DNA of 64,000 bases from an uncultured Bacteroides sp. (GTDB lineage Bacteria; Bacteroidota; Bacteroidia; Bacteroidales; Bacteroidaceae). Both the position numbers and the translations under genes were made by a program. This document shows, piece by piece, positions 13,423-29,340 of this stretch. Location of the stretch: the NCBI RefSeq assembly GCF_947632445.1, contig NZ_CANRPM010000001.1, forward strand, positions 1 to 64,000, written 5' to 3'. The notes below the pieces were generated by a model. It was not told the DNA's origin. It saw nothing but the letters and a program-made list of their open reading frames with translations, and did not search any database. The stretch's first letter is position 1; the number at the start of each line of letters is the position of its first letter.

Positions 13423-13886
13423 ACTCGCTTGTCCGGTTCCTTATCGACTGGGGATATGCAGGCCTTTTCCTGTCGGCACTATTGGCAGGCAGCATCCTTC
13501 CCTTCAGTTCCGAGCTGGTGCTCGTCGCTTTGGTCAAATTAGGGCTGAGTCCGACGCTCTGCGTGTTCTCCGCCGCCGTAGGCAATACAGTAGGAGGGCT
13601 GACATGCTACTACATGGGCCGATTGGGCAAAACGGAATGGATTGAGAAATACTTCAAAGTGAAGCAGGAGAAAGTGGAGCGTATAATGCGTTTCCTCCAG
13701 GGAAAAGGCGCACTGATGGCTTTCTTCGCCTTCCTCCCGTTCGTGGGCGAAACCATTGCTATTGCTTTGGGTTTCATGCGCAGCAACCTTGTGCTAACCA
13801 CACTCTCCATGTTTGTCGGAAAACTGCTCCGCTACGGCATCATGCTGTGGGCACTCCAAGAAGCTATTACGGCAATAGGCATCTGA
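13407..13886 (+). CDS. YqaA-type DedA/SNARE-associated-like membrane protein
   Basis: Small (159-residue) relative of the DedA family, of the short YqaA type. It has an amphipathic start, GYAGLFLSALLAGSILPFSS near the N-terminus, GNTVGGLTCYYMGRLG, and a C-terminal pair of helices around FLPFVGETIAIALGFMR. DedA proteins are linked to lipid translocation and membrane homeostasis. The final codons (AIGI-stop) lie inside the 29-base direct repeat that bounds the genomic island, so its 3' end appears to be the integration site and was kept intact by the repeat. Confidence 0.88.
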   Translation: MDTFIDSLVRFLIDWGYAGLFLSALLAGSILPFSSELVLVALVKLGLSPTLCVFSAAVGNTVGGLTCYYMGRLGKTEWIEKYFKVKQEKVERIMRFLQGKGALMAFFAFLPFVGETIAIALGFMRSNLVLTTLSMFVGKLLRYGIMLWALQEAITAIGI

Positions 13887-13897
13887 CGATTTATAAG
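13869..13897 (+). repeat. attL-like direct repeat at the end of the YqaA-type gene
   Basis: Twenty-nine bases, starting ACGGCAATAGGCATCTGACG, recur at 29249-29277 with one mismatch (A at 13877, C at 29257). The matching breaks off on both sides. This copy spans the last codons and stop of the YqaA-type gene. Confidence 0.88.
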
Positions 13898-13969
13898 TGA
13901 AAAAGTGGCATTTATAAAGTCGGTTTCCCCATTTAACATTTAGTAAGATGGATTTTGCAATTAAATAAA

Positions 13970-13977
13970 TACCTTTG
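13970..13977 (+). promoter_or_regulatory. -7 element of the island operon
   Basis: TACCTTTG fits the Bacteroidota -7 consensus and lies 48 bases upstream of the first island gene, just inside the left repeat. The -33 region is not a good match, so activator dependence is possible. Confidence 0.55.
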
Positions 13978-14024
13978 TAGCCAAATATCCGTCTCATAGG
14001 AAGAGAGGGATAAATAAAGTATTT

Positions 14025-14483
14025 ATGAAACAGAAAACTATAACAACAAATGCGAGGAAAGCATTCATTATGTTATTCCTTTTAACAATACCATTGGTAA
14101 CTAAGGCACAGTCAGTGGTAACGGAAATTTCATGGAATGTATATAACCAGAATTACACAGGTTTATTGGTCTTATATCCCAATAATAAAGGTATATTGAA
14201 AGTAAAAACATTTATAGCAGGAACAGGTTGGGTATGGGTACAAGAGGATGCAGTTCTTACTAAACAATATGATATGTGGGGAAATTGCACTTCTTACATC
14301 AACTGTTATAACCCCAAAACAAATCCTTATATTCCTTGGGCAGCAGATAATTTTGTGGTGTATCCTAATGGCACAATATACACACAGGATGCTTCTGGAA
14401 CATGGTCTACTCAAATAGTAGCCTATGTCGTAACTACCAATAATTGGCAAAATAAATTTAGAGAATATGGAATTCAACGATAA
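14025..14483 (+). CDS. secreted protein of unknown function, first gene of the island operon
   Basis: I do not recognise the family. The 152-residue product has a signal peptide ending near TKAQS, then a short, probably all-beta, aromatic-rich domain (FHS-less, with WNVYNQNYTGLLVLYPNNKG and GTGWVWVQEDAVL). There are two Cys in the CTSYINC segment. It is encoded 22 bases before a lipoprotein gene and is likely cotranscribed with it. AT-rich codon use matches the rest of the island. Confidence 0.7.
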   Translation: MKQKTITTNARKAFIMLFLLTIPLVTKAQSVVTEISWNVYNQNYTGLLVLYPNNKGILKVKTFIAGTGWVWVQEDAVLTKQYDMWGNCTSYINCYNPKTNPYIPWAADNFVVYPNGTIYTQDASGTWSTQIVAYVVTTNNWQNKFREYGIQR

Positions 14484-14505
14484 TATTAACATAAAATAAT
14501 CGAAT

Positions 14506-15066
14506 ATGAAAAAGTTATTTTCTTTGATGGCAATGTTCCTGTGCATTTCTCTTTGTACAGGATGTATAGGAGATGAAGAGGAAGATGAGATTGCTTCTGG
14601 TATTGAAGATGATGGAACTGGACGAATACCTCCGCAATCTGAATTAATTGGAACTTGGCAGAGCAATAATTATCAAGGATGGGAACCCCGGTTGGAACAA
14701 GATGTTGTCATTGCACGCGGTTTGACTCTTAACAGTGATGGAAGTTATGAGAATAAGTATCGTGGGCATCTTACACAGGCAAAAGATGGCTCTTCTCTTT
14801 CTACTACAGAATTTGGAGAGTGGGAAATTGAAACTGGTACATGGTCATATAACTCTTCCAATGGAGAAATCACATATCGCCCAAATTCCGACCAACGTGT
14901 GAATTATGAGACAATGGTAATGGAAACATATACCCTTGATACTTATAAAGAAAAGTGTCTTATTAAAGAATCTGGCACATATAAAGGAGGCTGGATAACA
15001 CTGGACACTTACCTTAAACGGGCAGGGAACAAAGGTGATTTAAGATATGTAATAAACAAGCAATGA
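14506..15066 (+). CDS. lipocalin-like lipoprotein
   Basis: Lipoprotein with lipobox CTGC (Cys20), followed by an acidic stretch (GDEEEDEIASG) typical of surface-exported Bacteroidota lipoproteins. The mature part has the LIGTWQSNN start and a G-W-E-I/T-G-T-W-S-Y pattern seen in lipocalin-like domains of this phylum. The 186-residue protein may bind a small hydrophobic ligand, but that is inference. Its stop codon overlaps the start of the radical SAM gene by four bases (ATGA), indicating translational coupling to a cytoplasmic enzyme. Confidence 0.72.
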   Translation: MKKLFSLMAMFLCISLCTGCIGDEEEDEIASGIEDDGTGRIPPQSELIGTWQSNNYQGWEPRLEQDVVIARGLTLNSDGSYENKYRGHLTQAKDGSSLSTTEFGEWEIETGTWSYNSSNGEITYRPNSDQRVNYETMVMETYTLDTYKEKCLIKESGTYKGGWITLDTYLKRAGNKGDLRYVINKQ

Positions 15067-16073
15067 CAACAGGACATATCATTAGCAGTCTCAGGCAAAA
15101 TGAATTTACTGACGCTGTGCTGACCGAAGCTCTTGAGCTGACAGGTGAGACACAGCTTCAGCTTTTTGAACTTGCACAGCAAGCAAGGCATATCGCATTT
15201 CCAGATGATGAAGTTCAGGTTAGAAGTGTGATTGAAATATCTAATGTATGCCGTCAAAAATGCAGGTATTGTGCAATTGGAGGAAAGGAACAAAAGTTTA
15301 ATTATACACTTGACTCCAATGCAATTTCCTTATTGATGGAATACCTCTATAATAAAGGCCGCCGTAATATTCTCCTGCAATCGGGAGAAAATGTGAATGA
15401 TGCTTTTATTAATGATGTAGTGGACGCTATTGATTTCGTGAAACAGCATCATGACGATTTAAGAATAATCTTGTGCATGGGAGATTTGAGCGAATCACAA
15501 TATCAGAGACTTTTTAATGCAGGAGCAACTGATTATATACTCAAATTTGAAGCGTCTAACAGAGATTTATTTTCATACTGTAAACCCAATGACTCATTGG
15601 AAAACAGACTTGAATGTATAAAACAATTGCATAAAATCGGTTATCGTATAGGCTCTGGAAATATAGTAGGATTGCCCAAGCAGACATTGAATGATTTGGT
15701 CACTGATTTGCAGTTGATTCATGAACTACCCTTATCTATGAACAGTACAACCATTTTTATTCCGGCTGAGAATTCGGCCTTTGCAAATGAGCCTGCTGGT
15801 AATCCTATACATACGTTGAACATGATGGCATTAATGCGTATCATGAATCCGAATAGATTAATGCCAACAACAAGTTCTTTGGAGAAAATGATACCCGACG
15901 GACAATATCTTGGATTGCAGGCTGGAGCGAATACTGTTACGATTCATGATGGCACTCCAGAAGAGTTGCAACAGTTTTTCCCTATTTATTCGGCTAAACG
16001 CATCCGTCCACAAATAGAACATTTCAAAGACATTTTAGAAAGAGCGAATTTGAAAACAGATAAATTGAGTTAA
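15063..16073 (+). CDS. BioB/HydE-like radical SAM enzyme
   Basis: Cytoplasmic radical SAM enzyme with a CX3CX2C cluster motif (Cys63, Cys67, Cys70 in NVCRQKCRYCAIG). Further family traits are LLQSGE, the ILKFEASNRDLF segment and GSGNIVGLPKQTLND. The 336-residue length and the C-terminal region (LGLQAGANTVT) resemble biotin synthase, HydE and PylB enzymes. Biotin synthase is unlikely because no other biotin genes are near. HydE is unlikely because hydF, hydG and hydrogenase genes are absent. The substrate is unknown. Three bases separate it from a second radical SAM gene. Confidence 0.88.
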   Translation: MTTGHIISSLRQNEFTDAVLTEALELTGETQLQLFELAQQARHIAFPDDEVQVRSVIEISNVCRQKCRYCAIGGKEQKFNYTLDSNAISLLMEYLYNKGRRNILLQSGENVNDAFINDVVDAIDFVKQHHDDLRIILCMGDLSESQYQRLFNAGATDYILKFEASNRDLFSYCKPNDSLENRLECIKQLHKIGYRIGSGNIVGLPKQTLNDLVTDLQLIHELPLSMNSTTIFIPAENSAFANEPAGNPIHTLNMMALMRIMNPNRLMPTTSSLEKMIPDGQYLGLQAGANTVTIHDGTPEELQQFFPIYSAKRIRPQIEHFKDILERANLKTDKLS

Positions 16074-16076
16074 ACG

Positions 16077-17489
16077 ATGGCAAAAGACTATATATCTTTA
16101 TCGGATACTCGCTGGAAAGAATTTCAGGAGTTTCAAGGATTGGGATTAATACCTGTGCATGGAGATTTCTCACCTGCTGGAGTTCACTATCCTCCGATAA
16201 CAAATTATCAACCTCTTACCCAAGAGGAAGCTTATAAGGACTATGCAGAAACAGTAAAAGGAGAGTTTGATGTGTATGTGCATATTCCCTTTTGCCATCG
16301 TCGATGCTTGTTCTGCCATTATCCTTCCCATTATCGTTGTTCTGATGCAGAGAAAGACATTTATCTGACTGCTCTTGAAAAGGAAATGCAAAACTGGCTG
16401 GCTTTTCATGGACTCAACAGAATAAAATCACGCTCTATTTTAATGGGTGGAGGAACACCTACGGATTTGTCTCCGTCTCAGTTGAAACGCTTCCTCACTT
16501 TTTTTTGCAAATATGTGGATATAAGTAAATGTCCTCAGTTCAATTATGACGTTGACCCTTCAACTCTTGTAGGAGAAGACGGATTAGAAAGGCTGCGCAT
16601 TATTAAAGATTTTAAAGGAGACCGCTTGACAATTGGTGTTCAATCATTGAATGATGATGTATTGAAAAAGATGAATCGTTCTCATAATGCCGCTGTTGCA
16701 AAGGAGGCGATCAGCAACTGCTTGCGGATGGGATTTAATGTTAATATAGAGTTTATTTATGGGCATCCTGGAGAAACCTTGCAGAATTGGATTGATGTTA
16801 TAGAAGAGGCTTGTACACTGGAGGCTGACGAAATTCAGCTTTACCGTTTGAAAATCGAACCTTACGGCGATCAAGAAGGGACAATAAAGAAATTCTCTGC
16901 CTACCACAATGAGGAATTGATTTCTGTGGAAGATACTATCAGAATGAAGGAAATATCCAATCTCATTTTAGCAGACCACGGATATACAGAGAACTTGCGT
17001 AGAGTATTCACAAAAAGCAAGAAGAATATTTCTATATATGCTTATAATCAATGTTGCCGTCTGCGTGACGAAGTTGGTTTTGGTATATCAGCATTTAGTA
17101 GTCTGAATGACCGTTTCCTTATCAACACTCCCGATTTTGAAGACTATTATAAGCGTGTTGCTAAAGGATATTTGGCTGTAAACAGAGGATTGTTACGCTC
17201 ATCGGAACAGCAAATACGATGGTCTATAATACTTCCATTGAAGAATTATTTTATCGACAAAGCTTTATTCAAGAAAATCAATAAGGTTGATATAGGATCT
17301 GTTTTTGCTGACAAATTCGAACTATTGAAAAAATACGATTTCATTAGTGAAACGGACAAGAAGATAGAACTTACCCCTAAAGGGGCATTCTATTCGGATG
17401 AGATAGTTCATGTATTTTATGAGAATCAACACCAATCTTTCCCACCAGAAGATTTCAGGACAGGGTGTCTTAATCCATATAACCAATGA
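16077..17489 (+). CDS. HemN/HemW-superfamily radical SAM enzyme
   Basis: 470 residues with the CX3CX2C motif in YVHIPFCHRRCLFC (Cys73, Cys77, Cys80), a GGGTPT motif (about 124-129), IGVQSLNDDVLKKMNRSH and a C-terminal HemN-like region (GFGISAFSSL, then a winged-helix-like tail). Relatives include coproporphyrinogen dehydrogenases, the haem chaperone HemW, anaerobic haem-degrading methyltransferases and class C radical SAM methylases. The island context with methyltransferases favours a specialised reaction over haem synthesis, but this is inference. Its stop codon overlaps the next start by four bases. Confidence 0.88.
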   Translation: MAKDYISLSDTRWKEFQEFQGLGLIPVHGDFSPAGVHYPPITNYQPLTQEEAYKDYAETVKGEFDVYVHIPFCHRRCLFCHYPSHYRCSDAEKDIYLTALEKEMQNWLAFHGLNRIKSRSILMGGGTPTDLSPSQLKRFLTFFCKYVDISKCPQFNYDVDPSTLVGEDGLERLRIIKDFKGDRLTIGVQSLNDDVLKKMNRSHNAAVAKEAISNCLRMGFNVNIEFIYGHPGETLQNWIDVIEEACTLEADEIQLYRLKIEPYGDQEGTIKKFSAYHNEELISVEDTIRMKEISNLILADHGYTENLRRVFTKSKKNISIYAYNQCCRLRDEVGFGISAFSSLNDRFLINTPDFEDYYKRVAKGYLAVNRGLLRSSEQQIRWSIILPLKNYFIDKALFKKINKVDIGSVFADKFELLKKYDFISETDKKIELTPKGAFYSDEIVHVFYENQHQSFPPEDFRTGCLNPYNQ

Positions 17490-19567
17490 AAACTGTAAAA
17501 ATACTTCCAATTTGCATATTGGTAATGGCATTGATGATACAACAGGCAAAGGCACAGTATCAAATTGAGATTAAAGATCCATCCTCTCTTGTAAGAGTGG
17601 GGATGGATCCACATCCTACAGATAGTACGGATATTGCACTTGCATATACATTATTAGGTGCTTTGGATAATAATAATGTCGATTCTATTGCGTATGTGAG
17701 AGATCAATGGCATAAAAAAGCGGATGCAAACTTTACTAAAGACAAAGCTTATAGCTCTTTGGATTATCTGCTTTCACGTTATCTGTGTGATTTGTCAAAT
17801 GTAAAAATAGAAAAACGGGATGTCCTTACAGAAGATTTATATTCGTATTTCATGAATGATGCTTGCAGTCATTTGAAAGATTATTTGGTATTGAAATATG
17901 AATTGAATAACTATCGTCCACGAAGTGTGAAAGAGTATATTCAACAACGGACTTTTTATGAAGACATGTTGATGTTCAATGACCCGAATCGTGAACAATG
18001 GGATAAAACCGATGAAGTTCTCAAAAATATACCTTTGCATAAGGGTGACAAGATTGTTGATGTCGGCTGCGGATTTGGGTATAATTCTTGGAGATTCAGT
18101 AATATCGTTGGTAAAACGGGGACTGTCTATTCGACTGATACGGAAGCATCTTATGTAGATTATTTTGCCAGATTGTTAAAGAGGAACAACATAAAAAATA
18201 TCCATCCGATAACATCTACCAGCAATGACTTGTCTGTTAATGACAGCGTAGATGTGATTTTTATGAGTTCACTCTATCATATTTTATATACGTGGTCACG
18301 GGAAGATGAACGTAGCTCATTTCTAAAGTCAATCAAAAAACGGTTAAAGCAAGGTGGGTATATCGTGATTGTTGACAATGTAGCCCAGAACGGACGGGAA
18401 CTTAATAACTGCCATGTCAATCCAAGACTTGTTGAAGCTCAATTAGGATATTGGGGATTTGAGCCTATATCTGATATTTGTTTATCAGAACAAAGATATA
18501 TGCTTGTATTCCGTCACAATGACAATTATATTCCTAATATAACAGTAAAAGCTGCAACTTCTAATCCAATTCTAAATATACAAAGTCAGAAATCTGTTAT
18601 CCACATAGGAAGTCTCGATTCTTATGACATTACAGATCGTGGTGTTGATGCCGCCCAGTATGTTTATGACTTTATGGGTAACGAACAAACAGAACTGGCC
18701 GATATTGCCATTGAAAAATACAAAGAACTGCTGCCCACAGAAAATTTTGGAGGAGAATATTCAGCCTTACAATGGCTTTGTGAGGTTAAAAAAGCGGATA
18801 CAGAAACCCGTAAACAGATGTTGGAAGATAGATTGGCAAGAAGCTTCTACCATAAACTGACAGATGATAGTTGCAAAGTCATACGGTATTATCTTCTTCA
18901 TAAATACAAATTAGGGAATGATTCCATAAGAATGATGTCTGACTCTATTTTGGAAAAAAGCGGGGAAGTGGGACGAACACACCGTTCTTATTTAGAGGAT
19001 TATATTCTTGCATTAAATCCTCGTCGCCCACAATGGGAACATACGGATTCTTTAATAGCCCATTTGAATATAGTGGATGGAGAAACAATTGCAGATATTG
19101 GCTGTGGCTCAGGTTTCTTTACTGACAAATTTTCACGATTGGTAGGCGAGAAAGGTAAAGTATATGCCATAGAAATAAAGGATGAGCATATCAACACCCT
19201 TAATGAGTATCTAAATAATGAATGTATTAAAAATGTATCTGTCATCAAAGGAATGGATAATGCCATTGAACTTCCAGAACAAGTAGATAAGATGTTTATG
19301 TGTTCTTTATACCATGTCTTATACGGTGTAAATTCAGATGCAGATAGGGATAAATACCTTCAGAGTTTAGTAAAACTGCTAAAGCCCAATGGAGAACTGA
19401 TTATTGTCGATAATGGTCCTGTAGATGATGACACATTGCCATATCACGGCCCATACATATCCCGGGAATTAATAGAATATCAATTAAGGTTCTACGGACT
19501 TCATCTTGTTGACTATTATCAGATAATCCCTCAACGTTATATGCTAAAATTTAAACGGTCAAATTAA
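17486..19567 (+). CDS. signal-peptide-bearing tandem SAM-dependent methyltransferase
   Basis: A 693-residue protein with a clear signal peptide (MKTVKILPICILVMALMIQQ, cleavage near AKA-Q). Two class I methyltransferase domains follow, with motif I at 191-198 (VDVGCGFG) and 536-543 (ADIGCGSG). The duplication covers the whole unit: helical segments (about 121-142 and 457-478), the PNREQW/PRRPQW lead-ins, the MSSLYHILY/MCSLYHVLY motifs, IVDN and RYMLVF/RYMLKF ends all recur in order. Class I methyltransferases normally work in the cytoplasm where SAM is made, so an exported one is unusual. It sits right after two radical SAM genes. Confidence 0.87.
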   Translation: MKTVKILPICILVMALMIQQAKAQYQIEIKDPSSLVRVGMDPHPTDSTDIALAYTLLGALDNNNVDSIAYVRDQWHKKADANFTKDKAYSSLDYLLSRYLCDLSNVKIEKRDVLTEDLYSYFMNDACSHLKDYLVLKYELNNYRPRSVKEYIQQRTFYEDMLMFNDPNREQWDKTDEVLKNIPLHKGDKIVDVGCGFGYNSWRFSNIVGKTGTVYSTDTEASYVDYFARLLKRNNIKNIHPITSTSNDLSVNDSVDVIFMSSLYHILYTWSREDERSSFLKSIKKRLKQGGYIVIVDNVAQNGRELNNCHVNPRLVEAQLGYWGFEPISDICLSEQRYMLVFRHNDNYIPNITVKAATSNPILNIQSQKSVIHIGSLDSYDITDRGVDAAQYVYDFMGNEQTELADIAIEKYKELLPTENFGGEYSALQWLCEVKKADTETRKQMLEDRLARSFYHKLTDDSCKVIRYYLLHKYKLGNDSIRMMSDSILEKSGEVGRTHRSYLEDYILALNPRRPQWEHTDSLIAHLNIVDGETIADIGCGSGFFTDKFSRLVGEKGKVYAIEIKDEHINTLNEYLNNECIKNVSVIKGMDNAIELPEQVDKMFMCSLYHVLYGVNSDADRDKYLQSLVKLLKPNGELIIVDNGPVDDDTLPYHGPYISRELIEYQLRFYGLHLVDYYQIIPQRYMLKFKRSN

Positions 19568-19574
19568 AACGTAT

Positions 19575-20192
19575 ATGAAACAAAAGGTTATTATATTAGG
19601 ATTATTCATTACGTCTCTTTTTATCTCAAATCCAGCAAATGCCCAAATGTTTGATGGAAGTGCCCGGTGGGATGATGACGATGAAAGCACATTGATCATG
19701 GGCAAATGGTCACAACTTTTCTATGAAGTCAATGTAGGATGGAATGTTTCTGATTTTGAACATTATGCAAATTTTCTATATTTTGGAATAGGTGTTGGTT
19801 ATCCGGTAAATACCAAAAACGCATGGAGAAAATTTCTACCCAAGCAACAAATACCTTCAAATGAGGAAGAAGCAGAATTGTTTGGATCAATGAATACAGA
19901 TGATGTATATGGAGGAAAGATTGGAATGGGATGGATTCATTATTTTAACCATTCCATTGGATTTTATACGCAAGTAAGTTGGGGCTTTCTTGCTGACTTT
20001 GGCAGCCCGGCAGATGAAGATACTTCCACAACGACGAGTTCAAGCACTAAGAAGACTTTCATCTACAATACTGTACCTGTAGAGTTGGGATTGTGTATAA
20101 ATTGCTGGAAACATTTGCATCTTCAATGTGGTGCAACTTATATGTGGAAAGAAATACCACTTGTAACCGTTGGTATCGGATATGCTTTTTAA
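19575..20192 (+). CDS. small outer-membrane beta-barrel-like protein
   Basis: Signal peptide ends at NPANAQ. The remaining about 180 residues contain alternating aromatic/polar strands (NFLYFGIGVGYPV, GGKIGMGWIHYFNHSIGFYTQVSWGF) and the C-terminus PLVTVGIGYAF ends in Phe, as barrels do. A low-complexity Thr/Ser run (DTSTTTSSSTKK) forms a likely loop. The family is not recognised. It is encoded seven bases after the exported methyltransferase. Confidence 0.7.
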   Translation: MKQKVIILGLFITSLFISNPANAQMFDGSARWDDDDESTLIMGKWSQLFYEVNVGWNVSDFEHYANFLYFGIGVGYPVNTKNAWRKFLPKQQIPSNEEEAELFGSMNTDDVYGGKIGMGWIHYFNHSIGFYTQVSWGFLADFGSPADEDTSTTTSSSTKKTFIYNTVPVELGLCINCWKHLHLQCGATYMWKEIPLVTVGIGYAF

Positions 20193-20201
20193 TCGTTTGT
20201 T

Positions 20202-21074
20202 ATGATGTATCTTGGTATAATCGTTGCTTTGCTCTCTGCAGCATCATGGGCTTTTGCCACTGTGGTGTTTGACAGAATCGGGAAAGTTGTGCCATACGTT
20301 GGTATAACTTTTCTGAAAGGCATATTCAGTATTATACTAATGATTGCTTTGTTGATATTTACGGGAGGACTGCATGACATTGGAATATGGGAATTTTCTT
20401 TTCTTGCCCTAAGCGGTATTATTGGCATATCAGTCGGAGATTCTCTTTTTTTTAAGTCTTTGCAGGATCTTGGAGCCAAAGTTCAGGTGATATTTTTTCT
20501 ATTAGGACAGATATTCACTATGATATTTTCACTCCTTCTATTAGATGAATTGTTATCTCTCGAACAATACATTGGTGCCATAATTTTGTTGACGGGCATT
20601 GTCGTTGTCATTTGGGGAAAACAGGAAAACCATCCGAATAAAATACGTGGGATCATATGCGGGCTATTGTCAATTCTGTGTTTCTCTGTTTCCGCAATCA
20701 TGGTAAAAAAGGCTATCGCTGATGTTGAAGTTGTAACGGCTACATTTTACAGGATGGCTTTCGGTACGGTTTTCACGCTTGGATTCGGTGTAATGGGAAA
20801 GCAACTGCCCTCATGGATAAAGCCTTTGAGGGATAAACGACTTTTAGCTTTATTCATTCTCAATGTTTTTGTAATAACCTATGGAGGCTTCCTGTTATCA
20901 ACGATTGCTATAAAACTGATCTCTGTATCATTAGTTTCCGTATTGGGTACTACAGAACCCGTATTTGTCCTCTTGTTTGCATATTTGATTAATAAGGAGA
21001 AGATTACAAAACAAGAAGTAATTGGAACAATGATAACCTTAACAGGACTGTTCATTATTATTAATGGCGAGTAA
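20202..21074 (+). CDS. EamA/DMT-family membrane transporter
   Basis: A 290-residue inner-membrane protein with about ten hydrophobic helices arranged as two EamA repeats. The first begins YLGIIVALLSAASWAFATVV and the second GIICGLLSILCFSVSAIMVKK, each with the family's helix pattern; the C-terminal repeat has LGTTEPVFVLLFAYLINKEK. DMT transporters export or exchange metabolites such as amino acids, purines and, in some intracellular bacteria, SAM. In this operon it could move a pathway intermediate, product or SAM; the substrate cannot be read from sequence. Confidence 0.88.
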   Translation: MMYLGIIVALLSAASWAFATVVFDRIGKVVPYVGITFLKGIFSIILMIALLIFTGGLHDIGIWEFSFLALSGIIGISVGDSLFFKSLQDLGAKVQVIFFLLGQIFTMIFSLLLLDELLSLEQYIGAIILLTGIVVVIWGKQENHPNKIRGIICGLLSILCFSVSAIMVKKAIADVEVVTATFYRMAFGTVFTLGFGVMGKQLPSWIKPLRDKRLLALFILNVFVITYGGFLLSTIAIKLISVSLVSVLGTTEPVFVLLFAYLINKEKITKQEVIGTMITLTGLFIIINGE

Positions 21075-21085
21075 AACAGACGAAT

Positions 21086-23839
21086 ATGAAACAGCTATAT
21101 CTTATCATATCCTTTTTGACACTTGTCATTCTTTCTACAAAAGCACAAGAATATGTTATGCACGGGACGGTAACTGATGCAGAAACATTGCAACCTATTT
21201 CAGATGTGGCTTTGTCTGGAAATTTTAATGGTAAAACATATAGCGCAATTACTGATTCCTTGGGAGAATATCATATAAAAATGCCTTATGACACCCGTAT
21301 GATACTGAAGGTCTCGCATATTAGCTATAGGTCTCAATCCCGATTGGTAATATGTAATAAAGCTGTTACAGAAAATTTCTCTCTTATGCCTAAATCCAAC
21401 GCATTGGATGAGGTGGTTGTAACGACAGATGTCCAAAGAGTAAAACAACAAAACGATACAACTGTATATTTTGCCAATGCCTACAAAGTAAATCATGATG
21501 CAACAGCATACGACCTGATAACACAGAAACTTCCCGGTATAGGTATAAGGGATGGTAAGCTGGAAGCTCATGGAGAAACTGTGAAAGAGATCCTGATTGA
21601 TGGTAGGGAGTATTTCAAAAGTGATATTACATTGTCATTAAAAAATTTGCCGGCAGACATTATTAATGAAATTCAGTTATTTGACCAAATGTCGGATTAT
21701 TCAAGGCTAACAGGATTCGATGATGGAACAAGGAGAAAAACAATAAATATTGTGACACAAAAAGGTATATCAGATAACTTGTTTGGCAAGGCATACGCTG
21801 GATATGGACTTGATGATTATTATAAACTATACGGAATGTTGAACTGGTTCCGAGGCGACAGACAATTGTCTGTTTTTGCTCAAGATAACAACACGAGTGA
21901 ACAAAACTTCTCAATTATAGATCTTCTGTCCACTTCAGGAACAGCAATGAATACAGCCCCACAACAATCTCCATATAGTAAAAGTACGAGTGACAATACT
22001 TTTCATCCGGCAACATCCAATGATGTTTCCGATTTAATGGTTGGAGGATATTCATCCGGTGAAACAACATCCCATGCCATTGGGAGTAACTTCTCTGACA
22101 TATGGGGCAAAAGGAAAGAGATCTCTTTTTCAGGACATTATCTATTCAATAATGCCTTGAATAAAACAGATTATGACATTCGTGACGATTACTTTAATGA
22201 GGGTGCAAATGCCAATCTTCAAAAACAGAATGTTCACACGGACAACACAAACCACCGTTTTAACACAAAGATAGATTGGGATTTAAGCCATAACGACCAC
22301 TTGATGCTACGTCCGTCATTGCTTTATCAACATCAAAATGAATCTTCACTGTTACATATATCAGAAGAAGATCATACGACACTTGATATAAACGACCTGA
22401 TGTCACAGGAGCAATACACTAATCAGGAAGCAATAAATACAAATAATGAGTTGATGTACATACACCGTTTTCCCAGTATGGGAGGTTCTCTTAGTGCAAA
22501 CATCAAGTATTCATATGAAAATACAGAAGAAGACCTTGAACTATGGTTAAACAATGTACAAAGCAACACTGAATCAAAGCAACAAACATGGTCTAATAAC
22601 AAGTCTTCTGGTTTGGCAGCCGTTCTCTCTTATATCCATCCCTTTGGTCGTTACATCCGCTTGAAAACCGATGCAGGATGGAGTGTAACTTATCGCGAAA
22701 TAAAAAGAGCAACCAATCGTTTGGATTCTCTGACCAATATCATGTCTGTCGATTCTGTTTTAAGTGGAAAAACCTCATCTGATTATGGAGGTTTCCTATC
22801 CGGTCTGTCTTTTTTATATAACCGTAGGCATACTCAAATAGTTGGGGGTGCGGAGTATCATGCTTATCGTATGTACAGCATAAATGATATTACGTCCAAT
22901 TCAGTGGAAACTAATTCAATACTTCCATTTCTGCATATTAGGCACCAATGGGGTGAACGAGATTGTCAGCTTCACTTTCAATATAAGACGGAGCAGACAT
23001 TTCCAAGTATGCAACAATTGCAAGATGCTATCAACAATACAAATCCAACGCTCTCTATCCGTGGAAACATAAAACTGAAACCGTCATATACCCATTCTGC
23101 AACAGTTCGTCTGCTTATTCCCAGTAAGAATAACGGTGGAATATTTGTATTTTTTGTAAATACAGAAACAATCCATAACTATATAGCAAACAAACGTTCA
23201 ATAGCTGGTGGGGCTTTGGGGGCGGCTGAATCAAAAAGTCAGATGCTTTCATATATCAACGAAGATGGGTATTATTCCGCAAGTTCTCTTGTTGCGTATG
23301 GTTTCCCGTTTAAGCCAATAAAATCCAATGTAAATATCTCCACGTTGTTGCGTTACAGCCATATTCCTGGATATTGGGAAACGGAAAAATCATATAATAA
23401 ACAAATAAATTGGAACAGCTCGCTGACTATAGGTAGCAATATCAGCAAGCAAGTGGATTTTGTTTTAGATTGTAATTTACAGTATCTAAATGACAAGAAC
23501 GATGCCCATCCTCTATTAAAGGTAAACTATTGGACTTTATCTTTTGGTGGTCAGCTGAATTGGCAGTTTTGTTCCCCTCTCAAAGTCGTAATAGAATGTG
23601 GACGTACCGGATATTACGGATTAGGAACAAATGAAATGAATGCTGTAATGTGGAACATGGCATTAGCTTATAAGTTTATGAAGGGCAAACAGGGTGAACT
23701 ACGTTTGTCATGTGATGACATTCTAAATCAAAACAATTGTTTTACGCAACAAACCAACGAACTATTTAGACGAAAATCTACAGCGAATGTGATTGGAAGG
23801 CATGCAATGTTGACATTTACGTATAACTTTAATACATAA
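21086..23839 (+). CDS. TonB-receptor-like outer-membrane protein with carboxypeptidase-regulatory domain
   Basis: A 917-residue outer-membrane protein with signal peptide (ending STKAQ), a regulatory-like domain (MHGTVTDAETLQPISDVALS), an ALDEVVVT segment and a plug-like region (ILIDGREYFKSDITLSLKNL), then a large barrel ending FTYNFNT. It resembles the Bacteroidota outer-membrane beta-barrel proteins related to TonB receptors rather than SusC, and no SusD follows. It probably serves uptake or release of the island's ligand or product. Confidence 0.85.
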   Translation: MKQLYLIISFLTLVILSTKAQEYVMHGTVTDAETLQPISDVALSGNFNGKTYSAITDSLGEYHIKMPYDTRMILKVSHISYRSQSRLVICNKAVTENFSLMPKSNALDEVVVTTDVQRVKQQNDTTVYFANAYKVNHDATAYDLITQKLPGIGIRDGKLEAHGETVKEILIDGREYFKSDITLSLKNLPADIINEIQLFDQMSDYSRLTGFDDGTRRKTINIVTQKGISDNLFGKAYAGYGLDDYYKLYGMLNWFRGDRQLSVFAQDNNTSEQNFSIIDLLSTSGTAMNTAPQQSPYSKSTSDNTFHPATSNDVSDLMVGGYSSGETTSHAIGSNFSDIWGKRKEISFSGHYLFNNALNKTDYDIRDDYFNEGANANLQKQNVHTDNTNHRFNTKIDWDLSHNDHLMLRPSLLYQHQNESSLLHISEEDHTTLDINDLMSQEQYTNQEAINTNNELMYIHRFPSMGGSLSANIKYSYENTEEDLELWLNNVQSNTESKQQTWSNNKSSGLAAVLSYIHPFGRYIRLKTDAGWSVTYREIKRATNRLDSLTNIMSVDSVLSGKTSSDYGGFLSGLSFLYNRRHTQIVGGAEYHAYRMYSINDITSNSVETNSILPFLHIRHQWGERDCQLHFQYKTEQTFPSMQQLQDAINNTNPTLSIRGNIKLKPSYTHSATVRLLIPSKNNGGIFVFFVNTETIHNYIANKRSIAGGALGAAESKSQMLSYINEDGYYSASSLVAYGFPFKPIKSNVNISTLLRYSHIPGYWETEKSYNKQINWNSSLTIGSNISKQVDFVLDCNLQYLNDKNDAHPLLKVNYWTLSFGGQLNWQFCSPLKVVIECGRTGYYGLGTNEMNAVMWNMALAYKFMKGKQGELRLSCDDILNQNNCFTQQTNELFRRKSTANVIGRHAMLTFTYNFNT

Positions 23840-23869
23840 AAAAATAGATAATAGAAAAAATAATTGATT

Positions 23870-24655
23870 ATGAAAAAGATATTTACTATTCTTTTTATTT
23901 TGACATTTTTCTTGCCTCAAGTGGTAAGGTCAGAAGTTCAAAAGGATTCTCTATCAACATTACAGACATTCATCAAAAAGAATTCCAGATGCTGGTCTAA
24001 AGAGGTTGTGTACGAAGGCTGCAACATCCTGTTATGTTCTGATGGAGAATCTTTATTGGTTCAGTTCAAAATCCTGCATCCGGCAATACAAATGCGGTTG
24101 CTAATGCAAGGTTTGACATTCTATATAGACCCTACAGGTAGAAAAAAAGAAAAGTATTCTGTTATTCTTCCTTCTGCTAATGATGTCAAAGAGCAAATGC
24201 AGATGATGGAACCACAAAGGGCAAGTCGGGACGATGCGAAAGTGCAACGTCCTGATATAAAACCATTGATTAATTCCCTTTCTAAATACGGTGCAATACT
24301 TGATATAAATGGAAAGAGTACTTTCATTGATAGCGGAAATTTTGTAATAAACCTAAATGAAACGAGTGCTTCTCTTATATACACAGTGCTTATTCCTGTT
24401 GAAAAGATGTTGAAAGAAAAGAAACTTTCAGACAAATGGCGTATAGGACTTTATTCGCAGGGAGGGAGGCAAGGTGAAGGAGGACCCGGATTCGGAGAAA
24501 ATCCTGAGTTTGGGCATAAACAAACTGATAGACAACAACAAACGAATGGAAATAAACAAATACCAGACTCGGAAGATATGCGAAGATTATTAATGAAAGA
24601 CATTGAAGAATGGATAGTCTTTTCATTCTCTGAAATATGCTCATTAAATGATTAA
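23870..24655 (+). CDS. envelope protein of unknown function, paralogue of 25560-26249
   Basis: I start at ATG 23870 rather than an in-frame TTG at 23864. The 261-residue protein has a signal peptide (LTFFLPQVVRSEVQ). Its core, with LLMQGLTFYIDPTG, SVILPSANDV, RPDIKPLINSLSKYGA and YTVLIPVEKM, aligns with the lipoprotein at 25560-26249 (LLMQGFQLHLYGV, ITFPSAKNV, RPDMRPLVAALNKAQV, YSVIIPNDYV). A Gly/Gln-rich linker (QGGRQGEGGPGFGENPEFGH) lies near the C-terminus. No family is recognised. Confidence 0.75.
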   Translation: MKKIFTILFILTFFLPQVVRSEVQKDSLSTLQTFIKKNSRCWSKEVVYEGCNILLCSDGESLLVQFKILHPAIQMRLLMQGLTFYIDPTGRKKEKYSVILPSANDVKEQMQMMEPQRASRDDAKVQRPDIKPLINSLSKYGAILDINGKSTFIDSGNFVINLNETSASLIYTVLIPVEKMLKEKKLSDKWRIGLYSQGGRQGEGGPGFGENPEFGHKQTDRQQQTNGNKQIPDSEDMRRLLMKDIEEWIVFSFSEICSLND

Positions 24656-24665
24656 AATTTATACC

Positions 24666-25541
24666 ATGAAAACAGTATTAAGACCAATTCTTGTAACGAC
24701 ATTATTCATGGTAATGACGTTGCCAATGATGGCGCAAGACAAAAACAAAGCGCACATGTTGGGATTGCTTGGAGGTGTTGCATTTACGAGCAACCCACCT
24801 GCCTTGCAAAAACTTACAGACAAGTCTCATTATGTAGATGGAAATGGAGGTTTGACCTATCTTTATCACAACAATGTAACGGACGGATATGCTTTTGAAT
24901 GGCAATTATCATTTATAGGTTCTTCCGTCAATACTCTTGAATCTGCAGACAATGAGACCAAAGTCAAGTTTATAATGCCACTTGATTTCCGTTGGTTTTT
25001 AGGAAATTATCAGAAAATACAAGCATATGTTGGATTAGGGCTACAATATAACACCGTTTGGCTTTTTACTTCTGGTGAGGATTATGATAACACCTATTAT
25101 GACCCTTGGTGGGGCGTTTATTATACCGAAGTAACACAAGGAGAAGATAAATGGGATTGGACGGTTAACCAATTAAGCACGAATGTTGCTGTTGGTTTTA
25201 AAATACCATTTTGGAAAATCTGGGTACGTGAAGAAGCTGATTATATAAAGATGCACAACATCATTTTGGGTTTGAAAGGACATTTTCCAATCATTAACGC
25301 ATCTGAGTATCATGGAGATGAGAATTCTTCAGTCGATTTGTCAAGGGATAAAGTGAACTTATCCATTACAGGTGGAATATCTTTTGGTTTTAAAAATGGT
25401 AATGCAATAAAAATTGATGGAGAATATCCACTTGGAGGTAGTAATAAATATACGGTAAATGACGGAGGGCATTCCACGTTCTTTAATACTCATTCTTGGT
25501 CTCTATCGGCGACTTTACTGTTTAGGCTTGGAGGAAGATAA
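24666..25541 (+). CDS. outer-membrane beta-barrel protein
   Basis: Starting at 24666 gives MKTVLRPILVTTLFMVMTLP and a clean signal peptide ending MMAQD; an upstream in-frame ATG at 24648 only adds MIKIYT and overlaps the previous gene. The mature region (about 265 residues) has barrel-like strands such as YAFEWQLSFIGSSVN, QAYVGLGLQYNTVWLF and a C-terminal SLSATLLFRLGGR. It sits between the two paralogous envelope proteins, suggesting that the three act together. Confidence 0.73.
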   Translation: MKTVLRPILVTTLFMVMTLPMMAQDKNKAHMLGLLGGVAFTSNPPALQKLTDKSHYVDGNGGLTYLYHNNVTDGYAFEWQLSFIGSSVNTLESADNETKVKFIMPLDFRWFLGNYQKIQAYVGLGLQYNTVWLFTSGEDYDNTYYDPWWGVYYTEVTQGEDKWDWTVNQLSTNVAVGFKIPFWKIWVREEADYIKMHNIILGLKGHFPIINASEYHGDENSSVDLSRDKVNLSITGGISFGFKNGNAIKIDGEYPLGGSNKYTVNDGGHSTFFNTHSWSLSATLLFRLGGR

Positions 25542-25559
25542 TTTTAAAGTTGGTATTGA

Positions 25560-26249
25560 ATGATGAAAACGAATACAAGTATATTATTGGTGTTGATATG
25601 TGTTATAACAGCATGTTCTACTTCAAGCAATATAAGTAAATGCTCTGTGCCTTTTGAGGATAGAGGAGAAATTACATTGAACCGTTCTGATGCTGATGAT
25701 GGCATTCAATTGACATTGGAAACTTCAGATCCTGTTGCACTCAGAACATTGCTCATGCAGGGTTTTCAACTACATTTATATGGAGTAAAAACAGATACAA
25801 CGGTGATCACGTTTCCATCCGCAAAGAATGTCGGCGATAAAATTGCCCATCATCCGGGAGAGGTAAAAGCGACGATTCAAGGTGAGAGAGAAAAACGCCC
25901 TGATATGCGGCCTCTGGTTGCGGCTTTAAACAAAGCGCAAGTTACAGTAGAAAAAAACGGATTACATCCTGTTTCGATCCATGAAGGTTATGAAGTTTCT
26001 ATCAATCCGTCAAACGGGTTGCTGTCATATAGTGTAATTATTCCCAATGATTATGTCATTGATGGTAATTATAATATCACATTGCTGTCACAACCAGATG
26101 CGGATATGATAAGAACTGGTGAATTTGCAGGACAAGGATATTCCAACAGGAGTGCAGAAACTCGTCCACAACCTTTCGGAGCAAACGAAAAGGACGGCAA
26201 TGCAGAGCAGCGTAAAACCATAAAGATTCTGTTCAACTTCAACAAATAG
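25560..26249 (+). CDS. lipoprotein, paralogue of 23870-24655
   Basis: Lipobox TAC at residue 19 (ICVITACSTSSN). The 229-residue product shares the core pattern of its neighbour two genes upstream, including a hydrophobic LLMQGF stretch, an FPSAKNV motif and KRPDMRPLVAALNK. The anchoring differs (lipid here, apparently soluble there), so the pair may be divided between membrane and periplasm or the two leaflets. Function unknown. Confidence 0.73.
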   Translation: MMKTNTSILLVLICVITACSTSSNISKCSVPFEDRGEITLNRSDADDGIQLTLETSDPVALRTLLMQGFQLHLYGVKTDTTVITFPSAKNVGDKIAHHPGEVKATIQGEREKRPDMRPLVAALNKAQVTVEKNGLHPVSIHEGYEVSINPSNGLLSYSVIIPNDYVIDGNYNITLLSQPDADMIRTGEFAGQGYSNRSAETRPQPFGANEKDGNAEQRKTIKILFNFNK

Positions 26250-26259
26250 ATAGCAAAAA

Positions 26260-26817
26260 ATGAAAGAATATGCAATCTTTGATTTGGATGGGACACTGAT
26301 AGATTCCTTTGATTGTATCTGTCGGAATGTAAACAAGACTTTGGCTCATTTTGGTAGTTCTGTATGTACAAATTCCCAATTTGAGGAATATCGCCATAAA
26401 GGCCTAAATGAGTTGTTCTCGTTTGCGGTGGAAACAATGAACGGTAGAATATCTATGGCGTCATTCAAATCCATTTTTGACAAAATGCACTTTGATGACT
26501 GCCTTGAGGGAGTGACTGTAATAGAAAAAACCAGACACCTTTTAGAGGATGCAAAGCAAAGAGGATTAGGTATAATCGTGCTGACTAATAAGAAACAGGA
26601 GATTGCAGAAAAGATATGTTCTGTCTTATTCCCTTCTTATTCATTTATGGGTATAGTTGGGCGTAATGATACTTTTACATCAAAATATGATAATATAGTC
26701 TTTTATATGTCATACCTTAAAATTTTGCCAACACATTGCCTCTTCTTTTGTGGCAACGACGAGATTGATGCGAATGTGGCAAAACTCCTAAATGTTGAAT
26801 ATTATAAAATAAATTAA
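26260..26817 (+). CDS. HAD-superfamily hydrolase
   Basis: Opens with the DxDGT motif (IFDLDGTLIDSF, nucleophile Asp8, acid/base Asp10). Motif II is IIVLTNKK and the acidic motif is CGNDEIDANVAKLLN. At 185 residues it resembles phosphoglycolate-phosphatase-like members; a small-molecule phosphatase role is likely but the substrate is unknown. It follows the lipoprotein gene by ten bases and precedes a short ORF by six. Confidence 0.86.
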   Translation: MKEYAIFDLDGTLIDSFDCICRNVNKTLAHFGSSVCTNSQFEEYRHKGLNELFSFAVETMNGRISMASFKSIFDKMHFDDCLEGVTVIEKTRHLLEDAKQRGLGIIVLTNKKQEIAEKICSVLFPSYSFMGIVGRNDTFTSKYDNIVFYMSYLKILPTHCLFFCGNDEIDANVAKLLNVEYYKIN

Positions 26818-26823
26818 CAAGTT

Positions 26824-26952
26824 ATGAAGATTAAACAATCAGATATTCGAAAGTCATGGTGTAATATTGATTTGGGAAAGATACCTTCAAGTTTAAAATT
26901 AGGAATAAAGGATAGTATTCCTAAATCAGCAAAGATTACAGGTGGGTGCTAA
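26824..26952 (+). CDS. 42-residue ORF, candidate small peptide or truncated gene
   Basis: Starts six bases after the HAD stop codon, with the same tight spacing as its operon neighbours. The product is Lys/Ser-rich, hydrophilic, has Cys13 within RKSWCNIDLGK and ends ITGGC. It may be a precursor peptide for the operon's enzymes, or the stub of a gene cut off where a YczE-like fragment was joined: the two reading frames overlap by 11 bases at its end. No known family is recognised. Confidence 0.45.
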   Translation: MKIKQSDIRKSWCNIDLGKIPSSLKLGIKDSIPKSAKITGGC

Positions 26953-27154
26953 TGTATTCATGATGAGTGCAGAAGCTTTTGTTTACTATACATGCAAAAG
27001 ATGGAATCTGCAATTCTGGAAAACAAAGATTAAATTTGATGTGTCCATGGTTATTCTTGCTATTCTCACATCATTGATATTTGATTTTTCTATATTGAGC
27101 GTAACAACTGCGGTCAGAGAAGGAACGGTTGTTGATGCCCTGTTAAGTAGGTAG
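26942..27154 (+). pseudogene. C-terminal fragment of a YczE/DUF6198-like membrane protein
   Basis: The 70-codon frame contains ANVFMMSAEAFVYYT, KIKFDVSMVILAILTSLIF and VREGTVVDALL, which match my memory of the C-terminal part of YczE/YyaS/YitT-type membrane proteins (FDVSMV...REGT..ALL). The N-terminal two thirds are missing; the only usable start is a GTG inside the preceding short ORF. It is best read as a remnant at a recombination junction. Confidence 0.7.
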
Positions 27155-27278
27155 AATATACCATTTTTATACTAAGCACATTAGCCTATCGAAATTTTTA
27201 AATCATAGAGCAACGTGATGGCGTAATGAACTAAGCGTCAAAATGAAGTCTATGTGATAACCTGTTGTAATAGAATAG

Positions 27279-28245
27279 TCAATCCCTTATTTTATTGATG
27301 AGTTCTGTTGCCGTGATGTCTCGCATAAGTGTGAAACCGAACCACTTTTTGCCCAAATCTTTAATTGAAGCCCCTATGTGGTACACTTCTTCGTCTATGA
27401 GTAGGAAACGGTCATGCGCCTCGTTGAATCGCTTTATTTCGATAGGCGGATATTGGACGTTGTGACGGTCAACATCCAGTTGGAACTGGTTGCTGACACG
27501 CTACGTGTAGATAATGGAAGATACACCTTCCTCTCTTTTATCAAGCAACGTAAGTACGGAGTCATCCACATAGTTGTCAATCAGCACAACGGATTTTTTT
27601 GCTTTCCGTATCAGATCGGACACGAAACGATAAGCGTCAAACACCTGCCCGTCATAGAATATGCCCTGCATCGGAGGAATACCTGCATCCAGACGTTTGA
27701 AAACTTCGTCAATACGTTTGTCCTGTCACTTCCTGATGCTGTTTCATCTCCAGTTGGTGATATTCAATTGTTTCAAGCCGTTGGAAAAGTTGTGCGTTGG
27801 TGGCAATAAAACGGCGCATAGAAACAAAAGCATCCATAATCTTGATGCTGACAGCTATGGCCGTTGGGTTGTGAAGGACTGTCGAAAGCATGGATATGCC
27901 TTGTTCTGTAAAGACATAGGGCGTGACTTTGGAATACTTTAACGGTTTGAGGTGGTCGCAAATTGCGACCAGCTTATCTGTTTCTTCTTTTGTCAGTTGA
28001 AAGCGGAAGCGTTCAGGAAAACGTTCAATGTTACGTCGGACTTGCTCATTAAGACGTTTGGTTTCAACACCATATAGAACAGCCAAATCACGGTCAACCA
28101 TTACTTGCATCCCTCTTATATTCAAGATAAGTCGGGCAATATCTTCCCGCTCGGATAGTTGTTGTTCCACTGCCATAGGTAACTGGTCGCAATTTGCGAC
28201 CTCCTTACTTGCTTTGACCTCTGTCTTTTTCCTTTTTTTCGCCAT
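27279..28245 (-). pseudogene. broken ORF6N-domain gene (frameshift and nonsense codon)
   Basis: The intact part (28245-27709) is an ORF6N DNA-binding domain with ILNIRGMQVMVDRDLAVLYG, RNIERFPERFRFQLT and VFTEQGISMLSTVLHNPTA. Beyond a +1-base slip near 27720 the second frame continues with KRIDEVFKRLDAGIPPMQGI, DAYRFVSDLIRKAKKSVVLI and, after a TAG at 27501-27503, EAHDRFLLIDEEVYHIGASI, ending at TGA 27279. The span of 967 bases is one over a multiple of three, consistent with one inserted base. The family is common in Bacteroides islands. It was probably about 320 residues when intact. Confidence 0.85.
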
Positions 28246-28254
28246 CGTCCTGCT

Positions 28255-28557
28255 TTATTGCTCGTTTTCGTTCAGACCTTTGATAATCTCGATACCCAAT
28301 GCGTTTTCTATCTTACAAATGGTTTCCAGCGACATATTCTTTTTCCCGTTCAACATTTTGGATATATATTGCTGGGTACAGCTCATTTTCTCGGCAAGCA
28401 TCTTTTGCGTCATGCCAAGTTCCGATATCCGTTTGGACATGACCTCGGCTATCCATTGCGAGTATTGCGTCCAATCTTTTTTATCCTGTCCTGTCTTGAC
28501 AGCCTGCGGATCGATTTCCAAAGTCTCGCAAGGCATTTTATCTGTCACTGCATTCAT
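28255..28557 (-). CDS. XRE-family helix-turn-helix regulator
   Basis: A 100-residue protein with a Cro/C1-type helix-turn-helix (GMTQKMLAEKMSCTQQYISK, MLNGKKNMSLETICKIENAL) in its C-terminal half. It lies directly upstream of the ORF6N gene on the same strand, ten bases apart, so the two formed an operon. The N-terminal region (DWTQYSQWIAEVMSKRISE) resembles antitoxin-type or phage-type regulators. No toxin partner is seen. Confidence 0.85.
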   Translation of the reverse strand: MNAVTDKMPCETLEIDPQAVKTGQDKKDWTQYSQWIAEVMSKRISELGMTQKMLAEKMSCTQQYISKMLNGKKNMSLETICKIENALGIEIIKGLNENEQ

Positions 28558-28585
28558 TGGAATGATTATATTGTCTTATCGGGCG

Positions 28586-28617
28586 CAAAGGTAATGCAAA
28601 TATTCGAGATCACACAA
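28586..28617 (-). promoter_or_regulatory. promoter of the XRE/ORF6N operon
   Basis: On the minus strand TACCTTTG (28586-28593) lies 21 bases from a TTG (28615-28617), matching the Bacteroidota pattern. It is 29 bases upstream of the XRE start. Confidence 0.65.
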
Positions 28618-29248
28618 CTTTCGGGTTGTATTTCCGTAAAAACAACGCAATACCAAACCTAAATCAAAGATTCAGGGAAACGGCCATTTATCCCTTATCC
28701 CTCAGTAGGAATAAATTTTCAATCTGCTAATCCCCTTGTTTTATTATCAAGGACAACATTTTTCCAATTATTTGTTGCGAATTTATTGCTCATAAGCTAT
28801 TTACGCCTGTATAATAGTTGATTATCAGTATATTAATATTTCTACAAAATCAATACTTTTAAATCGATAAAAAGGAATTATGTTCTTGCTTGTTGAATTC
28901 AAGTTGCCTTTAAGAAAGATAAATATGTTAAATCTTCGTCTTTCTTGTTTTCTCCAGAATCTACGTCGCCACTTTTCTACCGTTTAAGATGCAAGTTTTT
29001 GATATAAAAGAACTTGCAAATACACCGGATAAAGAGAATTGTTAATCTTTTCTTCTTCCCAAGAAGCAGCTTTTAACCCCAAGGGTCTTATGTTTCAAAC
29101 ATAAGGGTCGAATGATTGAAACATACCTCCTCTATGTTTGAAACATTCCCCAAGGAGCAATTGAGATGCGTGGAAAAGGTGATTGAACAGGATGAGGGAG
29201 GGAGATTGAATGATTTATTTTACACTCGATGTGGAATTTATCCATAGA
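28618..29248. other. AT-rich gene-free right end of the island
   Basis: No coding region is supported. Two short palindromes are present: 29087-29105 (CTTATGTTT-C-AAACATAAG) and 29134-29146 (ATGTTT-G-AAACAT), with a related GATTGAAACATA between them. These could be recombinase or regulator binding sites near the right att repeat. Confidence 0.55.
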
Positions 29249-29277
29249 ACGGCAATCGGCATCTGACGATTTATAAG
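29249..29277 (+). repeat. attR-like direct repeat
   Basis: Copy of the 29-base sequence at 13869-13897 with one mismatch (C at 29257). Core chromosomal genes resume downstream. In this copy the dedA-derived reading has no gene attached, as expected for the distal copy of a site that lies in a gene's 3' end. Confidence 0.88.
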
Positions 29278-29310
29278 AGGTAATGCCCCATAAAATATGC
29301 CGGAACTTTA

Positions 29311-29340
29311 TTGTTAATTAACATATTCTTCGTATCTTTG
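29311..29340 (+). promoter_or_regulatory. promoter of znuA
   Basis: TTG (29311-29313) and TATCTTTG (29333-29340) are spaced by 19 bases. The element lies 28 bases upstream of the znuA start and just outside the island's right repeat, so island insertion placed new DNA immediately upstream of it. No clear Zur palindrome was recognised. Confidence 0.72.

Follow-up and report, generated by a model that had tools for sequence, protein, structure and literature searches.

A conserved Bacteroidales gene cluster that combines two radical SAM enzymes with an exported tandem methyltransferase and an EamA transporter

What a bacterium might make, and where it might finish it, with two radical S-adenosylmethionine (SAM) enzymes encoded next to a methyltransferase that bears a signal peptide is the question raised by a locus of an uncultured Bacteroides sp., which we analysed within a window of 64,000 nucleotides (contig NZ_CANRPM010000001.1, positions 1 to 64,000). 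Twelve genes, A to L, lie there on the + strand at 14025–26817, with intergenic spacings of −8 to +24 bp. The 12-gene cluster is one system, conserved beyond chance; in the window it has been inserted as an island, and a similar four-family core is present in Alphaproteobacteria. The explanation that we prefer, with a probability of roughly 40%, is a horizontally moving biosynthesis-and-transport operon whose product would be methylated in the periplasm.

Conservation and spread of the cluster

The evidence for a single system came from seven loci in metagenome-assembled genomes (MAGs). Sheep rectum and red deer contributed two loci each and other sources the remaining three; the loci are labelled Bacteroidaceae (three), Prevotella (two), Prevotellaceae (one) and Porphyromonadaceae (one). 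These loci were located with an alignment of E alone, a single-sequence E scan of the same contigs giving no matches; some of the contigs stop within the cluster, and the MAGs may be incomplete. In tblastn searches with the window genes, B, D, E, G and H were found in all seven loci, with their order kept, and it is because the order is the same in every locus found through E that we regard the cluster as one system. C was found in six, the exception being L036, the HAD gene L in three (L031, L032 and L033), and F and J in two (L032 and L036). Identities between the window and the MAG loci were 74–79% for D, 66–75% for C, 61–71% for G, 60–67% for E and 39–70% for H, and mostly 22–40% for B, I, K and L; B itself was 28–33% identical in six loci and 70% in L032.

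A similar core was found outside the Bacteroidales. Searches of plasmids by tblastn with C and with G matched the same four Bradyrhizobium plasmids. On one of these, NZ_CP094524.1, a methyltransferase gene is followed directly by a DMT transporter gene, then by genes for an ABC ATPase, an FtsX/MacB-like permease and HlyD, and a HydE-like gene stands directly before a HemN-like gene, all within 13 kb; another gene, 3.5 kb ahead of that for the methyltransferase, is of the TolC type. Identities to the window proteins were 52% over 469 columns for D, 35% for G and 32% for the HydE-like protein, which scored 165.7 bits with TIGR03956, below the cut-off of 254.6. The Bradyrhizobium methyltransferase has a signal-like start and is 37% identical to the second half of the window E and 30% to the first; because it is a single unit, the Bacteroidales E looks like a tandem duplication. 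The 40 kb inspected on the Bradyrhizobium plasmid have no annotated C10 peptidase, TonB-type receptor or exported protein of the Bacteroidales type.

In the window, the operon is contained in a 15.4-kb low-GC island that is bounded at both ends by a direct repeat. The left copy, of 29 nt (13869–13897), overlaps the end of a gene for a VTT-domain protein and is identical at 28 of 29 positions to the right copy (29249–29277, also 29 nt), 15,380 bases away. The 20-nt core of the repeat occurs exactly twice in the genome when up to two mismatches are allowed, and the reversed control gave no occurrence. The G+C content of the island is 0.36–0.38 vs approximately 0.5 in the flanks, and at third codon positions it is 0.27–0.36 in the 12 operon genes vs 0.63–0.71 in three flanking genes. 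The ZnuA gene is present in 51 of 60 genomes of the same genus, and in all 29 loci returned, the window's own excluded, the VTT-domain gene adjoins it within approximately 1 kb; in the window the two genes are 15.5 kb apart.

No integrase was found among the island genes scanned. In one relative (L032), a gene for a tyrosine integrase lies approximately 0.5 kb upstream of B, and an IMG/VR contig (L082:1-5396) carries a partial cluster, A to D, beside the genes for the large and small terminase subunits. The right end of the island (27709–28557, − strand) contains genes for an ORF6N-domain, anti-repressor-like protein and for a helix-turn-helix repressor-like protein, with a 23-nt inverted repeat at 27950–27972 and 28183–28205. 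The closest relative has a gene for an MnmC2-type tRNA methyltransferase between the VTT-domain and ZnuA genes (L053:2525-3184; 207 bits, cut-off 136). This gene is missing at the island site (window 13886–14025), and a search of the window's genome, made without a positive control, gave no match to it.

The system is rare among genomes, sporadic and mobile. Full-length E was found in one of the 60 same-genus genomes, the remaining matches being short and weak, in one of 393 genomes of the order (E ≤ 1e-60) and in one of 200 from the genus of L034 (E ≤ 1e-40). When sets of 395 Bacteroidota genomes were drawn, only the window's genome yielded D (E ≤ 1e-90) or E (E ≤ 1e-35). C (E ≤ 1e-60) had a match in one further genome, G843, where the matching gene is a true HydE. 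At E ≤ 0.001, the protein database gave 258 matches for E and 743 for C, of which the best 120 each were listed. Among viral contigs, neither E nor a single-domain E alignment had a match, and C and D matched L082 only; four phage records contain UbiE-like matches to part of E.

A low-GC, repeat-bounded island might also arise as a chance pile-up of unrelated genes at an insertion hot spot. That explanation is already largely refuted and almost certainly wrong, given the order kept in all seven loci and the similar core in another phylum, and we rejected a chance cluster because the loci, found through E, keep their order. The preliminary description of this DNA, which was made from the sequence alone, had looked to the co-occurrence of at least four of these families in unrelated places as support for a single system; we found it in all seven MAG loci, in A to D beside terminase genes and in the four-family core of Bradyrhizobium.

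Enzymes and transporter of the core

Families were called with Pfam and NCBIfam models and judged against their curated cut-offs. C (15063–16073, +) is a HydE/BioB-like radical SAM enzyme, in which PF04055 scored above its cut-off and BATS below; the three cysteines of its CX3CX2C motif (C63, C67 and C70) are invariant in 25 of 25 aligned sequences. The best equivalog was the HydE model TIGR03956, at 201.2 bits against a cut-off of 254.6. We rejected a role of C as a hydrogenase maturase on this score, on the absence of HydG above the cut-off from seven of eight genomes and on a tree in which four HydE proteins form a clade without C (support 98/95). HydG had no match in the window's genome (99.8% complete) and none above the cut-off in six of the seven MAG genomes, two of which gave matches of 167–170 bits vs a cut-off of 312. 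The one genome with HydG above the cut-off (G452) has C plus a separate HydE-type gene that adjoins HydG, and G843 has a true HydE (365 bits) adjoining a true HydG (544 bits).

D (16077–17489, +) is a HemN-like radical SAM enzyme of a subfamily without a name. PF04055 is its only Pfam domain above the cut-off, and none of the related curated models was reached (HemN, 146 bits vs 325; HemW, 147 vs 205; HutW, 124 vs 400; STM4012, 171 vs 380). The motifs NQCC and VHYPPI are present in 18 of 18 aligned members, chosen by hand from cluster proteins and protein matches. In the window the D and E genes share 4 bp, and in all seven MAG loci D is found upstream of E. The search with D (P0243) gave 1124 matches at E ≤ 1e-60 among 7999 scored, and the names among the 120 listed included Methylococcales, Chromatiaceae, Competibacter, cyanobacteria and Verrucomicrobiota. 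A HemN-like gene of Rhizobium gallicum (30% identity) has no other core gene annotated within 6 kb.

Two radical SAM enzymes with a methyltransferase and transporters would also suit the production of a radical-SAM-modified, ribosomally synthesized and post-translationally modified peptide (RiPP), whose precursor gene might lie in the larger gaps seen elsewhere, 192 bp between C and D in L034 and 281 bp before E in L036. We consider this very improbable: neither C nor D has a SPASM domain or any other Pfam domain above the cut-off beyond Radical_SAM, the gaps in the window do not exceed 24 bp, and A, F, I and J each code for an exported protein of full size.

E (17486–19567, +) is a tandem class I SAM methyltransferase with a signal peptide, by which it is predicted to be exported. 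A Pfam SAM methyltransferase domain was found in each half, the halves being 29.6% identical over 270 columns; the SAM-binding motifs are intact in both, the glycine-rich motif being present in 10 of 10 units, and the model and structure matches of the second half indicate a Rossmann methyltransferase fold. G (20202–21074, +), an EamA/DMT inner-membrane transporter found in all seven MAG loci (PF00892, 144.4 bits vs a cut-off of 28.2), has its gene in these loci either adjacent to that of E or separated from it by F or by two genes.

This association bears on what E methylates. G may be a SAM/S-adenosylhomocysteine (SAH) exchanger that feeds E, and E might then methylate envelope proteins, lipoproteins or glycans. 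Possible targets would be the variable exported proteins or the C10 protease that relatives encode downstream, and the product of C and D would be a separate matter. The constant company of E and G in the seven loci, their adjacency in Bradyrhizobium and the exported envelope proteins that accompany E are consistent with this, and an EamA protein of Rickettsia, which is reported to occur on integrative conjugative elements, is a SAM antiporter (excerpt of PMC5615194). We nevertheless hold this alternative to be rather unlikely; G gave no match to any model named as a SAM transporter, and the exported proteins are unlikely to be the common substrate because the 40-kb Bradyrhizobium region has no annotated counterpart of those in the Bacteroidales.

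The matches of E also invite a role in resistance, detoxification or defence, in which E would methylate an external thiol, a metalloid, an antimicrobial or an attacker at the cell surface. Its listed matches include ArsM-type models and the PADLOC candidate defence model mad2, and the island is mobile and sporadic. The ArsM-type score, however, was 83.4 bits against a cut-off of 510, and such a task would hardly need a carrier and a pair of radical SAM enzymes in the cytoplasm. We take the mad2 match to reflect a shared methyltransferase domain; it concerns the methyltransferase stretch of E but covers model positions 275–415 of 492 only. The other five of the six proteins given to PADLOC had no match, so that a mad2-type system is absent as a whole, and a complete known defence system of the MADS type was rejected on the same count, one matching protein of six. 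We regard a protective role as improbable.

Outer-membrane proteins and remaining genes

H (21086–23839, +), found in all seven MAG loci, is a TonB-dependent-receptor-like outer-membrane protein with a CarboxypepD_reg domain, a plug-like region and a putative barrel (CarbopepD_reg_2, 42.7 bits vs a cut-off of 32.2; OMP_b-brl_3, 82 bits vs 27). Its structural model is weak, with a predicted local distance difference test value of 58.8 and Foldseek template-modelling (TM) scores of at most 0.41; in the 50 listed Foldseek rows, which rest on this low-confidence model, the matches are TonB-dependent receptors by title, over 747–931 columns.

Downstream of the cluster, a gene for a C10 peptidase with an Inhibitor_I69 propeptide is present in four of the seven MAG loci, L031, L033, L034 (read as L050) and L037, and is preceded by a BACON lipoprotein gene in L031, L034 and L037; the BACON matches of L033 and L035 were below the cut-off, and the contigs of L032 and L036 stop before the position of this module. 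The window is without the C10 module, and a membrane-protein gene remnant (26936–27142, +) follows L; it is 74% identical over 69 aa to the L033 gene placed after the C10 peptidase gene, which encodes a membrane protein that is YczE-like by eye and has no Pfam family above the cut-off. In L050 and L051, the cluster continues downstream with open reading frames that by eye resemble more BACON proteins and more genes of the B, F and J types.

The peptidase and the receptor together might serve the use of haem or haemoglobin, the C10 protease freeing haem, H importing it and D opening the ring in the manner of ChuW/HutW. D does belong to the HemN-like group, the C10 genes are there in four of the seven loci, and receptors for haem and siderophores are among the TonB-dependent transporters that the low-confidence H model matches. 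Against it, D reaches 124 bits where the HutW model requires 400, C, E and G would have no role, the C10 part is lost from the window, if it was ever present, and the annotation of the 40 kb from Bradyrhizobium includes neither a C10 peptidase nor a TonB-type receptor. There is little likelihood, in our view, that the system serves this end.

No Pfam family scored above the cut-off for A, B, F, J or K, and I had only a MalM match below it; the signal-like starts of A, F, I and J were judged by eye. A (14025–14483, +; 152 aa) has a signal-like start and relatives in L036 and L082. B (14506–15066, +; 186 aa) is a putative, fast-evolving lipoprotein found in all seven loci. F (19575–20192, +; 205 aa) and J (24648–25541, +; 297 aa), which also have signal-like starts, are candidate small barrels. 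I (23864–24655, +), an exported protein, and K (25560–26249, +), a putative lipoprotein, are paralogues for which a PDB search gave no meaningful match; in L034 (17988–19346) the two are fused into one protein of 452 aa. L (26260–26817, +) is a HAD-family hydrolase (HAD_2).

The tightly packed array with two radical SAM enzymes, an EamA transporter, a TonB-receptor-like protein and a HAD hydrolase had been reported correctly in the preliminary description; its end has to be moved from 26952 to 26817. Where that description spoke of exported methyltransferases in the plural, one exported tandem enzyme, E, was found. Of its several lipoproteins, K passes a simple lipobox pattern, and B fails it, though it is lipoprotein-like by eye; the genes of its two barrels, F and J, are present, while the barrel fold of their products is unproven.

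No RNA element was found at 13800–30000 at E ≤ 0.5. Upstream of the operon, nothing on the + strand matched the pattern of a Bacteroides-type promoter (TTG-N18-23-TAnnTTTG), and a single TAnnTTTG occurs at 13970. Elsewhere in the window (49065–49124, +) there is a SAM-II riboswitch (63.3 bits, E 7.6e-10).

A possible function and its relation to known systems

From the similar sets of genes in relatives and on a Bradyrhizobium plasmid, we infer that the system probably builds a small molecule whose final steps take place outside the cytoplasm. C and D would make or remodel the molecule by radical chemistry in the cytoplasm; G would carry the intermediate over the inner membrane, or take SAM out in exchange for SAH; and E would methylate the intermediate in the periplasm, its two domains perhaps accounting for two steps. 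In the Bacteroidales, the product might leave, or a loaded form return, or both, through H and the surface proteins at the outer membrane; in Bradyrhizobium, exit might be by way of the MacAB-like ABC exporter, HlyD adaptor and TolC encoded nearby. The nature of the product, the direction of transport and the periplasmic use of SAM are hypothetical here. The earlier suggestion of synthesis with dedicated export and recapture fits the gene content and is partly borne out; its product, direction of transport and uptake are likewise putative. A more specific version, which we regard as possible but doubtful, is that G swaps SAM for SAH, that E, either periplasmic or surface-exposed, methylates a new metabolite built by C and D, and that the unit has spread by mobile elements between Bacteroidota and Alphaproteobacteria, joined in each to different outer-membrane machines.

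A number of observations weigh against the biosynthesis-and-transport explanation. SAM is not known to be available in the periplasm. The four Bradyrhizobium plasmids must be counted as one occurrence because D is identical across them, and on the ISRA435 plasmid the E region, 72.7% identical, is annotated as three pieces. In the tree, the group of C has a support of only 59/75, and a branch supported at 95/91 puts the Bradyrhizobium HydE-like protein on the side of HydE, under a warning of long branches, so that common ancestry of the two proteins is unproven. Relatives of D are widespread in gammaproteobacteria, cyanobacteria and Verrucomicrobiota. E matched mad2 with 130.7 bits (E 1.7e-38, best stretch 515–668). 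I/K-type genes were found in six of the seven MAG loci, L035 being the exception, and L036 has no C between B and D (L036:620-753), nor does its MAG have a match to C, so that C may be dispensable.

The folds of all the enzymes are already known; what is new is their conserved combination, and more sharply the exported methyltransferase accompanied by an EamA transporter. That the combination is not a described pathway, as the preliminary description had supposed, agrees with our results, in that every NCBIfam match listed for C, D and G stayed below its cut-off, no description of such a gene set was found in the literature searched, and the portion of PMC8326336 available contains nothing on such a cluster. 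Methyl transfer from SAM is usually regarded as an intracellular reaction. A conserved mobile set around an exported SAM methyltransferase and a neighbouring carrier makes the periplasmic use of SAM directly testable. It points to a natural product of Bacteroidales from ruminants and the gut and of a peanut-associated Bradyrhizobium, perhaps a metallophore, a cofactor or a signal, and it bounds the search for the substrates of two radical SAM families, one of them, the D subfamily, being present in several phyla.

Each core protein can be set beside a known one. C shares with HydE the fold family and the CX3CX2C motif, and its profile retrieves HydE structures first (215.5 bits), but C itself scores under the HydE cut-off. 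D has a HemN-like architecture, Escherichia coli HemN being the top PDB match of its profile (110 bits) and NocN the second (58 bits); it differs from HemN, HemW, HutW and STM4012 in lying under every listed curated cut-off and in its own NQCC and VHYPPI motifs. The top Foldseek rows for E are plant phosphoethanolamine N-methyltransferases (5wp4 and 5wp5), which likewise have tandem methyltransferase domains, although they are only 12–13% identical to E, with TM-scores of at most 0.31. G is of the same family as the Rickettsia antiporter, which is likewise reported on integrative elements; according to the excerpt of PMC5615194, that protein imports SAM into the parasite, whereas G would work outwards in our scheme, with the intermediate or SAM as candidate cargo.

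Two further systems offer precedents. In the cyclopropanase C10P/C10Q, a HemN-like radical SAM enzyme is encoded together with a methyltransferase (excerpt of PMC6050322), as D is with E; here the methyltransferase is duplicated and has a signal peptide, and there is a second radical SAM enzyme, which is HydE-like. A siderophore-type periplasmic maturation system is fitted in part by the gene content, and the proposed pathway follows a plan like that of a periplasmically matured metallophore or signal, such as pyoverdine, with other enzymes. The pyoverdine precursor is made inside the cell and finished by periplasmic enzymes, with PvdRT-OpmQ as an exporter (excerpt of PMC6206403). The present system would share the inside precursor and periplasmic finishing, together with MacAB-like pump genes in Bradyrhizobium or a TonB-type receptor in the Bacteroidales; it differs in that no pyoverdine enzyme family was seen among its genes, which encode radical SAM enzymes and a methyltransferase instead.

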